Shown here piece by piece: positions 8,336 to 54,343 of a stretch of DNA of 64,000 nucleotides (positions are counted from its first letter, which is position 1; each line of letters opens with the position of its first letter). Both the position numbers and the translations under genes were made by a program. The notes beneath the pieces were generated by a model, which saw only the letters and a list, made by a program, of their open reading frames with translations, was not told where the DNA came from and did no database searches. This DNA is from an uncultured Bacilli bacterium. Lineage in GTDB: Bacteria; Bacillota_I; Bacilli_A; RF39; UBA660. The stretch lies in contig CALVQK010000002.1 in assembly GCA_944358305.1 (NCBI GenBank), forward strand, positions 1 to 64,000, in the 5' to 3' direction.

Positions 8336-8704
8336 TTATAGTACTTCTTTCGCAAGACTTACTATCTTCATATAGTCTTTATCACGAAGTTCACGTGCTA
8401 CTGGACCAAAGACACGAGTTCCGACTGGGCTTTTATCATCTCTAATGATTACACATGCGTTATCATCAAATTTGATATAACTACCATCTTCACGTCTTAC
8501 TCCTCTTTTACTTCTTACGATTACAGCTTTTACAACTTTACCTTTAGGAAGTGGTGAATTTGGTATAGCATTTTTAACGGTTCCAACAACTACATCTCCG
8601 ATATTTCCAGTTTTAACATGACTTCCTCCTAGCACTCTGATTACTAATAATTCACGTGCTCCTGAGTTGTCTGCAACTTTTAATCTACTTTCTTGTTGTA
8701 ACAT
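8336..8704 (-). CDS. rplN: 50S ribosomal protein L14
   Basis: L14 (122 aa) lies at the subunit interface. [19 protein letters not shown] and the [10 protein letters not shown] segment near the C-terminus are characteristic of the family. It has standard position after rpsQ. Confidence 0.97.
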
Positions 8705-8729
8705 AGATTATCCTCCTTTACCTTAAGAG

Positions 8730-13892: not shown

Positions 13893-14011
13893 TGTTTACG
13901 TCCTCCCTTCGCCTATATCTAGTATAGACTTGCTCCGTGTGAATAACCCGATAGCTAGTTAACAACTTAACCTGGCGTATCGACAACCTCCCACATCTAA
14001 GCAGTCACACG
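13893..14011 (-). ncRNA. S10 superoperon 5' leader RNA (candidate)
   Basis: About 120 nt lie between the predicted transcription start (near 14011) and rpsJ. Read on the minus strand, GTGTGA (14010-14005) can pair with TCACAC (13942-13937), closing a large structure. Inside it are ATGTGGGAGG (13996-13987) and ACGCCAG (13978-13972). The GGGAGG is too far from rpsJ to be its ribosome binding site, which is the separate GGGAGG just before the ATG. A regulatory leader controlled by a ribosomal protein is likely by position; which protein binds is not known. Confidence 0.55.
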
Positions 14012-39434: not shown

Positions 39435-39590
39435 ATTTTCTGTTAGTCAGTTTAAATAGTCCCTAGAAAGTTTAAAAGTTCTTGAGAATTTCCCCCAAGA
39501 ACTTTATTTATAAGAATAGTCCTCGGTAGGATTTACGTTTTTACCTACTGTCTTGGGTACTTCTAACTGATTTCTCACTTATTATATTCT
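39435..39590 (-). ncRNA. L10 (rplJL) leader RNA
   Basis: On the minus strand the leader holds CCCAAGACAGTAGGTA and CCTACCGAGGAC, the pattern of the L10 leader where the L10-(L12)4 complex binds, and then a strong stem-loop AAGTTCTTG / CAAGAACTT followed by TTTAAACTTT. The order and the position between rplA and rplJ match the known autoregulatory leader (Rfam ribosomal L10 leader). Confidence 0.88.
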
Positions 39591-50556: not shown

Positions 50557-50592
50557 AATATGTGCCTTGTTAACTTAATTAGATAAACTAAA
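50557..50592 (+). repeat. Direct repeat, copy B
   Basis: 36 bp, 33 identical to copy A. It includes the last codons and stop of the first YitT-family gene. Confidence 0.8.
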
Positions 50593-51442
50593 CGCCGCCT
50601 TTTACTTCATAAGCATCTGTTACAATAAAAAAGGCCTTGGGATCTATTTCTTTGATTCCTTCTTTTAGTTTAAAATAATCTCTTGTAGGGACAACTGCTA
50701 ATAATACTCTTCTTTTCTTTTTTAAAAAGCCACCCTTTACATCAAAAATAGTAACAGTATGATGCAACGTGTTAATTAGGTATTCTTTTACTTTTTCTTC
50801 TTTACTTGTCGTTATATAAAAAGCTTTATTTTTGGAAATACCTAATATTACTTTATCAATTACGACACCACTAATATATATAATTATAAAAGCATATAAC
50901 ATCATATTGAAGCCAAAATAAGATCCTCCTATTAAAACTACAATAAAATTAATTACCATAGTACTTTTCGCAAGAGAGATATGAAAATATTTATAAACTA
51001 TTTGGCTTATAATATTTAAGCCACCATTACTAAAACCCACTTTATACATAAGGCCATTAGTTATTCCTAGAAGTATTCCTATTAAAATACTAATTAAGAT
51101 TAAATCTGATGTATCTATTACAATAAAGCGAGCGATAGGCTCTGTTAAAGAAACAAATAGGGGATAAATAAGAGTAGCGACTAGGGAACCTGCAGTTTGA
51201 TCTAATCCTAAAAATAAATAACTTATACCTAATAAAATAAGAGATCCTACTAATATGATTAAAGATGGAGAAATATCAAAGATATGATTTATAATAATAG
51301 CTACACCATTCATTCCACCTGTTACTAGATTAGTAGGATATAATAAGAGATTAAAGACTAAAGCTGAAATAAAAAGACTAAATATCAATACTCCATATCT
51401 ATACCATAGTTTAGTTTTGTCTATTTTTAATAGTCTAGACAT
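50588..51442 (-). CDS. YitT-family membrane protein with DUF2179 domain (copy 1)
   Basis: 284 aa with five or six TM segments (about residues 15-190, including VTGGMNGVAIIINHIFD) and a C-terminal cytoplasmic DUF2179 domain ending KEGIKEIDPKAFFIVTDAYEVKGG. B. subtilis yvjA, of the same family, also lies after prfB. The start at 51442 overlaps nothing and is 1 nt from the stop of its paralogue. Transported substrate unknown. Confidence 0.85.
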   Translation of the reverse strand: MSRLLKIDKTKLWYRYGVLIFSLFISALVFNLLLYPTNLVTGGMNGVAIIINHIFDISPSLIILVGSLILLGISYLFLGLDQTAGSLVATLIYPLFVSLTEPIARFIVIDTSDLILISILIGILLGITNGLMYKVGFSNGGLNIISQIVYKYFHISLAKSTMVINFIVVLIGGSYFGFNMMLYAFIIIYISGVVIDKVILGISKNKAFYITTSKEEKVKEYLINTLHHTVTIFDVKGGFLKKKRRVLLAVVPTRDYFKLKEGIKEIDPKAFFIVTDAYEVKGGV

Positions 51443-51443
51443 A

Positions 51444-52292
51444 CTAAGCACCACCTTTTACTTCATAAGAATCCATAACGACAAAGAAAGCATCTTTATC
51501 AATCATATGAATTCCTTCTTTTAACTTATAATATTCCCTTGTTGGAACAACACTCATTAAGACTGTTTGATTTTTGCTATTATAACCACCTTTAGCAATG
51601 AATTCTGTGACACCATGATGTAATTCATCTATAACAAAGTTTTTAACTTCTTTTTCTTTACTAGTAATGATATAAAATGCTTTTGAATCTGATATACCTA
51701 ATACTACTTTATCAGTAAGAGTAGATATTAAATAAAGAATAATTAAAGAGTACATTAAGTGATTAAAACCAAAGACAAAAGCACCTAGTACAATGATTAA
51801 ACCATCTGTAAAAAACATACTATTACCAAGACTTATTTTAAATATTTTAGAAACGATCATATTTAGAATATCAGTACCACCAGTTGAATAACCTGCTCTA
51901 AAAATTAAACCAGCACCTATTCCTTGTAATACGCCTCCAAAAACAGCTATTAAGATCATTTCACTTTCTTTAAAACTAATATAAGTAGATAAGTGTTCTG
52001 TTAAGCTTACAAAAACGGGAAAAAGAATTGAACCTAATATTGTCGCTTTAGTTTTTTCTTTTCCTAAAACCAAGAACGATAATATAATTAGGAAAACGTT
52101 TGCAACTGAGATGATTGTTGAAGGATTAAGACCAAAGAAATACTTTAATATTAATGAGAAACCACTAACCCCTCCTGCTACTAAATTATTAGGAGACATA
52201 AAAAGATTAAAAGCTAATGCTACTAAAAAGCAACCTATAATAAATTCAATTAATTCTTTAATTTTAATTTTAGGCTTAATCGCTTCTTTCAT
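51444..52292 (-). CDS. YitT-family membrane protein with DUF2179 domain (copy 2)
   Basis: 282 aa, a tandem paralogue of the gene just downstream: NLVAGGVSGFSLILKYFFG in TM2, SKAFYIITSKEKEV in the linker, and KEGIHMIDKDAFFVVMDSYEVKGG at the end. The last 30 residues of the two are almost the same, so a tandem duplication is likely. It overlaps prfB by 17 nt. Confidence 0.85.
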   Translation of the reverse strand: MKEAIKPKIKIKELIEFIIGCFLVALAFNLFMSPNNLVAGGVSGFSLILKYFFGLNPSTIISVANVFLIILSFLVLGKEKTKATILGSILFPVFVSLTEHLSTYISFKESEMILIAVFGGVLQGIGAGLIFRAGYSTGGTDILNMIVSKIFKISLGNSMFFTDGLIIVLGAFVFGFNHLMYSLIILYLISTLTDKVVLGISDSKAFYIITSKEKEVKNFVIDELHHGVTEFIAKGGYNSKNQTVLMSVVPTREYYKLKEGIHMIDKDAFFVVMDSYEVKGGA

Positions 52293-53389
52293 TTAGTCCT
52301 CCTTTTAGACTACTTTCAATAAAACTATCTAAAGATCCATCTAAAACACCTTTAGTATCACTAGTTTCATAACCTGTACGATGGTCTTTGACTAATGAAT
52401 AAGGATGTAAAATATAACTTCTAATTTGACTTCCAAAATCTATATTAGATTGAACTCCTTTTTCTTTAGCTAATTCTTGTTCTTTTTTTTGTTCTTCTAA
52501 TACATATAATTTGCTTTTTAGCACTTGTAAAGCTGTCTCTTTATTTTGAATTTGACTTCTTTCATTTTGACAAGTTACAACTATTTTGGTAGGTAAGTGA
52601 GTGATACGAACAGCACTATCTGTTGTATTTACTCCTTGTCCACCTGCTCCAGTTGATCTATAAACATCTATTTTTAAATCTTTTTCATTTATATCTATTT
52701 TTATCTCTTTAGAAATTTCTGGAGTTACATCAATACTAGCAAAGGAAGTATGACGTCTATTAGAAGAATCAAATGGTGATAGTCTTACTAAGCGATGTAC
52801 TCCTTTTTCATTTTTTAAATAACCATAAGCATAGTCTCCTTTTACTTTAAAGGAAACACTTTTAATTCCTGCTTCTTCACCAGCTTGATAATCAAGAAGT
52901 TCAATTTTAAAGTTCTTCTTCTCACAATATCTTGTATACATTCTATAAAGCATTGAAGCCCAGTCACATGACTCTGTTCCTCCTGCGCCAGGATGAATTT
53001 CAACAATACAGTTATTTTTATCATATGGTTTGTTAAATAAAAGATATATACTTAATTCTTTTAAGTCAGCTTTTATTCTCTTATTATCTTCTTCAATAGT
53101 ATCTAATAAGTCTTTATCATTTTCTTCATCAAGCATTTCTAAAAGTTCTAAAGAATCTGATATTTTTTTCTTTAAGTCAATTAGCTTTGAAGTTTGATCT
53201 TTTAGACTTTTAAGTTCACTTATAATAGACTCTGCTTTAGTATTATCATTCCAAAAACCTTCTTTTGTTGTTTCTTGTTCTAATTTTTCTTGTTCTTTTA
53301 ATTTGTTATCAGCGTCAAAGTGACCTCCATAAACTTAATATTTCTTCTTTTTCATTTGTTAATTCCTTTAATAGTTCAAATTTACTCAT
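52276..53389 (-). CDS. prfB: Peptide chain release factor 2, with programmed +1 frameshift
   Basis: RF2 (about 370 aa in total) recognises UAA and UGA. Frame 1 (53389-53315) encodes MSKFELLKELTNEKEEILSL WRSL and a TGA. A GGAGG lies 3 nt before CTT TGA C, the classical frameshift site; ribosomes move to the second frame (53316-52276). The anticodon motif is SPF and the catalytic motif is GAGGQGVN. The internal stop keeps RF2 under autoregulation. Confidence 0.97.
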
Positions 53390-53412: not shown

Positions 53413-53441
53413 ATTATACAAGATATTTATTTTTATAACAA
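53413..53441 (-). promoter_or_regulatory. Promoter of prfB
   Basis: On the minus strand, -35 TTGTTA (53441-53436), 17 nt, -10 TATAAT (53418-53413). Confidence 0.75.
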
Positions 53442-53450
53442 AATATTTTT

Positions 53451-53480
53451 TTGTATATTTATTTTAATAATGCATATATT
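53451..53480 (+). promoter_or_regulatory. Candidate promoter of the small RNA
   Basis: TTGTAT (53451-53456), 18 nt, TATATT (53475-53480). It is divergent from the prfB promoter. Confidence 0.5.
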
Positions 53481-53486
53481 ATTAAT

Positions 53487-53565
53487 GAGGAAGGTTCACT
53501 GTTAAGTGTGAAGATCCTCTATATTATAGATTGAACTGTTAGATTTGTTCTAGCAGTTCTTTTTT
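53487..53565 (+). ncRNA. Candidate stand-alone small RNA (about 79 nt)
   Basis: The plus strand holds three consecutive hairpins. The first is GAGGA...TCCTC with an inner TTCAC/GTGTGAA stem (53487-53519). The second is TCTATA/TATAGA (about 53518-53531). The third is an 11-bp stem GAACTGTTAGA / TCTAGCAGTTC (53533-53559) followed by six T. A promoter lies directly upstream. No reading frame of useful length with a ribosome binding site is present, and it lies between the divergent prfB and the convergent kinase gene. No RNA family was recognised. Confidence 0.6.
53533..53565 (+). terminator. Terminator of the candidate small RNA
   Basis: Perfect 11-bp stem with a G-T pair, 5-nt loop, then TTTTTT. 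The opposite strand has no T run, so it acts on plus-strand transcription. Confidence 0.8.
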
Positions 53566-54343
53566 ATTTTCTTTTAATTGTATTAGATAAATCTAAGGAT
53601 GGTAAAAGGGTAGAAAAATACTCTACATCTTCTTTATTTTCTAATCTTTTAAAATAATCATATAAAGTATGATTATTTAAAGGAGCGATTACTTTATTAT
53701 ATAGTTCTTTTATATTTATAGCATGTGTTTCTTTCGATATGAATATTTCTAAATCCATATCTAATAATAATGACAGACTAGAAATCATCGTTTTGATATT
53801 ATCGGTATATTTGGAAGCAAGATTTATTTTATTTGAGTTTTCATCAGGCATGATTAAATAACATTGTTGAAATTTATATTCATCACCAGGAAATCTCATA
53901 TAGTCTAAATCTATTAGATAACCATTACCATTAGTAGATACTAAAAAATTATCTGAATGAATATCTCCTAAATAGATGTTATTTTGATGAAGAAAGCTTA
54001 AAGCTTTATAAACATCATTTATAGCTTTTATTTTTGTTTTTAAATCTAAATTTTTACCAATTGCATTTCTAAATGTTAAGGAATCAGGGATAAACTCCAT
54101 AATATAACCGGAAAAGCTTCCATTTATATAAATTTTATCATAAATTTGAGGAGTATTTGGTATAGGCATATTTATCCTAAAATCTACATTACGTTCCACT
54201 TCGTCCTGAAAAGAATAAAAATCTCTAAATACTTTGTAAATAACTTTATTGTTAACTATATATATGTAACCGCCATTATTATGAGTATCAACAGACAGAT
54301 TTAGTAATGGTAATTTTTCTAACTCTTGTTCTGTTATGTTCAT
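53564..54343 (-). CDS. Protein-kinase-fold protein (eukaryotic-like, small)
   Basis: 259 aa. N-terminal lobe: nucleotide-binding Lys in VIYKVF. Catalytic loop LGDIHSDNFLV (HRD-like GDIHSDN with the Asp) and a DFG-like IDLDYMRF. It resembles small aminoglycoside- or lipopolysaccharide-kinase-like proteins more than serine/threonine kinases with extracellular domains. No membrane segment. The substrate is unknown. Its presence between secA and prfB breaks the usual order. Confidence 0.75.
   Translation of the reverse strand: MNITEQELEKLPLLNLSVDTHNNGGYIYIVNNKVIYKVFRDFYSFQDEVERNVDFRINMPIPNTPQIYDKIYINGSFSGYIMEFIPDSLTFRNAIGKNLDLKTKIKAINDVYKALSFLHQNNIYLGDIHSDNFLVSTNGNGYLIDLDYMRFPGDEYKFQQCYLIMPDENSNKINLASKYTDNIKTMISSLSLLLDMDLEIFISKETHAINIKELYNKVIAPLNNHTLYDYFKRLENKEDVEYFSTLLPSLDLSNTIKRK

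Follow-up and report, generated by a model that had tools for sequence, protein, structure and literature searches.

Among the small RNAs of Firmicutes, RsaE and RoxS are examples of trans-acting RNAs that work independently of Hfq. The candidate RNA described here lies in a 64,000-nucleotide stretch of the genome of an uncultured Bacilli bacterium (GCA_944358305.1, contig CALVQK010000002.1, hereafter the window). It resembles sRNAs of the RsaE/RoxS type in its predicted short stand-alone transcript, its own promoter, a 5' hairpin, a single-stranded stretch and an intrinsic terminator. It differs from them in that it has no C-rich (UCCC-like) open seed; its conserved open stretch is AUAGAU. 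To our knowledge, no small RNA is known for these small-genome, uncultured gut Bacilli.

The window RNA is like 6S RNA (RF00013) in being a small, apparently stable non-coding RNA but shows no similarity otherwise, and it is close in size to the small bacterial SRP RNA (RF00169) but lacks the domain IV motif. The idea that it substitutes for either was rejected, as both are present elsewhere in most of the RNA-bearing genomes tested. A separate 6S RNA candidate was found in seven of eight genomes (five above the Rfam cut-off), and none was seen in the draft genome to which the window belongs; a separate SRP RNA was found in seven of eight, the window's own among them. In the small genome G068, two separate 6S RNA candidates score above that cut-off (C3:151703-151867 and C6:26563-26726).

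A human-microbiome survey described 3161 intergenic structured-RNA candidates (PMC8040213), which are likewise conserved structured RNAs of gut bacteria. Its main text makes no mention of prfB, release factor, Tenericutes or RF39. We found no published description of the RNA in the literature; judged by that main text, an anonymous listing among the 3161 candidates is possible. The RNA is best called a new family of small regulatory RNA, a known kind.

A predicted small RNA gene beside prfB

Positions 53487-53565 of the plus strand look like the gene of a stand-alone small RNA with a predicted length of about 79 nt. The initial annotation had proposed such an RNA, the UTR of neither neighbour and without a known family, and the proposal survived every test run. 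The locus comprises the following features.

53451..53456, plus strand: -35 element TTGTAT, separated from the -10 element by 18 nt; T, G and A are kept at -36, -34 and -32 in 97 aligned loci
53475..53480, plus strand: -10 element TATATT (TANNNT in the family); T-12, A-11 and T-7 carry about 1.6 bits each over 97 loci, with alignment A3 as further evidence
53487..53565, plus strand: predicted small RNA, 79 nt counted from the G at 53487, the predicted +1, through the last T of the T-tract, called on fold z, covariance-model matches and the lack of an Rfam family
53487..53491, plus strand: P1 5' strand GAGGA, pairing with 53515-53519; changes on both sides (A-U to G-C, G-C to A-U)
53492..53494, plus strand: internal loop, 5' side, AGG (GGG in 4 of 97 loci)
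53495..53499, plus strand: P2 5' strand UUCAC, pairing with 53508-53512; A-U to G-C on both sides in loci L061 and L063
53500..53507, plus strand: apical loop UGUUAAGU, 6 to 10 nt long among loci and of variable sequence
53508..53512, plus strand: P2 3' strand GUGAA, from the covariation table
53513..53514, plus strand: internal loop, 3' side, GA, invariant in alignment A3
53515..53519, plus strand: P1 3' strand UCCUC, from the covariation table
53526..53531, plus strand: AUAGAU linker motif between hairpin and terminator, in 97 of 97 loci and in the divergent homologue L192
53533..53565, plus strand: intrinsic terminator with an 11-bp stem that includes one U-G pair, a 5-nt loop and six T

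The RNA reads GAGGA-AGG-UUCAC-UGUUAAGU-GUGAA-GA-UCCUC, then UAUAUUAUAGAUU, then GAACUGUUAGA-UUUGU-UCUAGCAGUUC-UUUUUU. The 79-nt stretch folds at -28.2 kcal/mol, far more stably than its shuffles (-13.95 +/- 2.66; z = -5.4), none of 200 being as good. The minus strand reaches a z of -5.8, so fold energy does not separate the strands, and the strand call rests on the promoter, the T-tract and the wobble pairs described below. Three consecutive hairpins had initially been described; hairpins are present at that place, but there are two of them, a single one at 53487-53519 and the terminator.

The sigma-70-type promoter (TTGTAT, 18 nt, TATATT) places the +1 on the first G of the hairpin. Promoter-like matches around the window RNA occur at chance level, and the consensus is weak in a single sequence. 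The predicted promoter is convincing because it is conserved: a TTG-like signal at -36 to -34 and TANNNT at -12 to -7 recur across 97 loci, where T-12, A-11 and T-7 are the best-conserved upstream positions. The candidate promoter of the initial annotation, weak by consensus, is thus borne out by comparison.

The terminator DNA (53533-53565) is GAACTGTTAGA-TTTGT-TCTAGCAGTTC followed by TTTTTT. It is the only terminator-like site in the 2 kb around the RNA (0.3 +/- 0.6 in shuffles). The terminator itself had been recognized correctly, with its 11-bp stem and six T; it is not perfect as then described, since the stem has 10 Watson-Crick pairs and one U-G pair. A same-strand terminator scored right after the RNA in 92 of the 97 loci, with unrelated stem sequences. 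On visual inspection most of the five misses do have a hairpin that resembles a terminator, and one of the five (L118) is truncated at the contig end. Even within the genus the terminator is swapped outright (GAACTGTTAGA... versus AGGAGCC...GGCTCCT) while the hairpin is near constant. Wobbles read on the plus strand are 26 G-U against 3 A-C in these stems, and this G-U excess indicates that the RNA reads from the plus strand.

A covarying hairpin and an invariant open motif

The comparative set for alignment, promoter, terminator and synteny consists of 97 distinct loci. Conservation of the predicted RNA is far above chance. Sequence and comparison establish its gene layout and strand, a covarying 5' hairpin, the invariant single-stranded AUAGAU linker, vertical inheritance within one clade and the fixed linkage to prfB.

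The 33-nt hairpin consists of two 5-bp helices parted by the asymmetric AGG/GA internal loop. Its apical loop is 8 nt long in 80 loci, 7 nt in 13, 6 nt in two and 10 nt in two. Across 32 distinct sequences, every cell of the ten hairpin pairs (100%) is a standard pair, and three of the ten covary (two in P1 and one in P2), a level reached by none of 500 shuffles nor by slid controls. The other seven pairs never vary, and the case for covariation therefore rests on three pairs. Hairpin pairing is retained across the 97 loci.

The AUAGAU motif is invariant in all 97 loci and lies at most 16 nt after P1. The pattern used to search genome_contigs did not contain AUAGAU, so the constancy of the motif among those loci is not built in. 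The covariance model R1 spans the linker, and loci gained through R1 are therefore not independent evidence for it. The linker is A/U-rich, and pairing by it would be weak.

We found no conserved reading frame in the 97 RNA loci, in agreement with the earlier statement that the stretch has no supported one. Two mini-ORFs were considered and rejected. One of six codons from the GUG in P2 (GUG AAG AUC CUC UGU AUA UAG) is preserved as GUG plus six codons in only 64 of 97 loci; about a third of the loci have another length or no GUG (GCG in two). The other, from an NTG overlapping the +1, is not preserved across loci. The window RNA had no match at the gathering score among 4227 Rfam families, and searching at E values up to 10 gave chance hits only, in keeping with the initial annotation, which recognized no family.

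Distribution

Within the genus, at least 18 genomes carry the element by a BLAST search with 161 bp. Among 385 genomes of the order, the model R1, built from hairpin and linker, matched 37, every one from a single family of gut Bacilli. With the weak matches set aside (G185 C23, G090, G104 and G398; 25 to 30 bits versus at least 47 bits elsewhere, taken as chance), about 34 remain as genuine. With the broader model R2, matches across 395 genomes of the class are confined to that same family.

An exact-pattern scan of genome_contigs (257 Gb) returned at least 118 stretches. Among the matches listed, R2 confirmed 58 of the 80 stretches tested, and by their labels the confirmed ones are nearly all gut Bacilli, Erysipelotrichaceae or Tenericutes MAGs, with one Candidatus Onthousia faecavium. 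Records labelled uncultured Clostridiales fall inside the same clade by prfB placement, and many labels of R2-confirmed stretches name animal gut samples. The other 22 of the 80 were not confirmed by R2, carry labels that point to other phyla and were discarded. A phage or mobile origin was also rejected: there is no phage match, and two pattern hits on viral contigs fail model confirmation.

A single-locus, vertically inherited RNA that is kept beside prfB across about a dozen genera and has an open motif of six invariant letters gives a defined handle on whether these gut Bacilli use RNA regulation, and on what. With 97 distinct loci, it is also a clean candidate for a new Rfam family.

Linkage to prfB and the neighbouring genes

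The RNA is divergent from prfB (start codon at 53387-53389, minus strand) and convergent with a kinase-like gene, the layout given by the initial annotation.

52276..53389, minus strand: prfB (release factor 2), with PCRF and RF-1 domains; divergent neighbour
53315-53328, minus strand: prfB +1 programmed frameshift site GGAGG-UCA-CUU-UGA, kept in 86 RNA-bearing loci
53413..53441, minus strand: prfB promoter candidate, TTGTTA, 17 nt, TATAAT (10 of 12 positions agree with the consensus), adjoining the RNA promoter back to back

The gene prfB lies upstream and head-to-head in 92 of 97 loci, within 600 nt in 86 and at 1 to 4.4 kb in six. Three of the five loci in which prfB was not seen stop short at the locus end; the other two (L106 and L035) are free of prfB over a flank of about 1.5 kb. 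The RNA is intact in these two and in the six loci with a distant prfB. On the other side, 84 of 90 loci have a convergent gene as the next ORF (100 aa or longer) and five a co-directional one; this convergence argues against a leader or riboswitch. The downstream gene in the window is kinase-like by a weak Pkinase match below the Pfam cut-off, and the T-tract ends inside its stop codon (53564-53566). Downstream of prfB, two tandem YitT-like membrane proteins are encoded at 50588-52292 (minus strand); linkage of the first one to prfB is conserved across genera.

In a tree of 54 PrfB proteins, all RNA-bearing rows, a divergent homologue and two RNA-less genomes (G048 and G059) form one group with support of 97/94. 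The tree is midpoint-rooted and its inner order is partly open; it fits one predicted origin of the RNA and two losses. Its apparent absence from a further genome (G184) reflects a contig end beside prfB.

The divergent homologue (genome G043, L192:2741-2845) occupies the same place beside prfB and has GAGGAAC...GUUCCUC, UUGUUUAUAGAUU and a terminator. It retains P1, the AUAGAU linker and the promoter spacing; P2 and the internal-loop sequence are missing. Its inner hairpin differs, one more hairpin precedes the terminator, and it scores 26 bits with R2. This element is likely a divergent form of the RNA, and if the two are homologous, the linker would be the most durable part of the RNA.

Proposed function and alternative explanations

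We infer a regulatory role for the RNA. The reading we favour, with a probability of about 0.55, is that of a stand-alone, Hfq-independent, trans-acting sRNA of about 79 nt, transcribed away from prfB from a housekeeping-type promoter of its own up to an intrinsic terminator. Sequence and conservation agree on a promoter and a terminator of its own and on no downstream gene being served. Hfq (PF17209) was not detected in any of the ten genomes tested, while controls were detected. The RNA would act in trans. Its 5' hairpin would cap and stabilize it, and the conserved AGG/GA internal loop probably gives it a surface for binding. Between the two hairpins the AUAGAU linker would stay open and be the site at which a partner makes contact: an mRNA most likely, through short base pairing, or else a protein. 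The terminator, whose sequence is freely replaced, would merely end and protect the RNA.

Action in trans is read from layout and conservation, that is from anatomy. The target searches used genome G068, almost in full, and some 1.3 Mb of G382, from two genera, with genes called and 591-592 orthologue pairs, and scored linker, P1 and hairpin against gene start regions. No convincing conserved mRNA target emerged among 591 orthologue pairs of the two genera. Target scores are modestly shared between orthologues (Spearman 0.12 to 0.28), which we read as mostly reflecting the common Shine-Dalgarno sequence in these predictions. The AUCUAU complement of the linker recurs in both genomes at rplN only (0.12 expected). 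In the window genome AATCTAT at 8703-8709 (minus strand) overlaps the rplN start codon, as it does in G068 and G382. The AAUCUAU match is absent from most other RNA-bearing genomes, and rplN was rejected as a conserved target.

The empty antisense search in two genera would also suit an RNA that binds protein, in which the hairpin with its AGG/GA loop, perhaps together with AUAGAU, binds a protein that is RNA-binding or associated with ribosomes and titrates or guides it, base pairing being irrelevant. Both sides of the internal loop are conserved beyond the needs of pairing while the apical loop is free, and with its A/U-rich sequence AUAGAU would not make a strong seed. The homologue in L192, however, keeps its place beside prfB with P1 and AUAGAU and has neither P2 nor the internal-loop sequence, and we consider this reading possible but on the whole unlikely. 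A further reading would make the RNA a new class of sRNA tied to translation termination, contacting a protein or the ribosome through the AGG/GA loop and AUAGAU rather than by ordinary antisense pairing, and standing head-to-head with prfB throughout the history of this small-genome gut Bacilli clade; we hold this to be doubtful.

That prfB stands head-to-head with the RNA in 92 of 97 loci, its promoter candidate back to back with that of the RNA and the predicted start sites about 80 bp apart, could instead point to a cis element, whether transcription or a DNA site that tunes the prfB promoter or an RNA that pairs with the prfB mRNA. With the prfB 5' region, the frameshift site included, the linker pairs barely better than shuffles do (mean z -0.58), the frameshift control of prfB is kept whether the RNA is present or absent, and the RNA persists intact where prfB is distant or missing from the flank, which together make a cis role improbable. 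An orphan riboswitch or attenuator, that is a ligand-binding leader with a conditional terminator, would account for a structured 5' domain directly before a terminator. It is quite improbable given the mostly convergent downstream ORFs and the wholesale swapping of terminator sequences, and no consistent complementarity to the hairpin was apparent in the few terminator stems inspected visually. The hairpin is, as DNA, an inverted repeat, and a regulator-binding palindrome followed by a terminator, with no RNA gene, was considered as well. Between loci the distance from arm to arm ranges over 6 to 10 nt, an asymmetric loop interrupts the repeat, and promoter, linker and same-strand terminator come with it as a fixed set; this explanation is hardly credible. 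The trans-acting sRNA stays our preferred reading of the locus.

Other RNA elements in the window

Two known ribosomal protein leaders are encoded elsewhere in the window, both on the minus strand. An S10-Clostridia ribosomal protein leader lies at 13909-14007 (35.9 bits, with a Rfam gathering score of 35.1 bits), and a Ribosomal protein L10 leader (RF00557) at 39463-39575 (52.8 bits).
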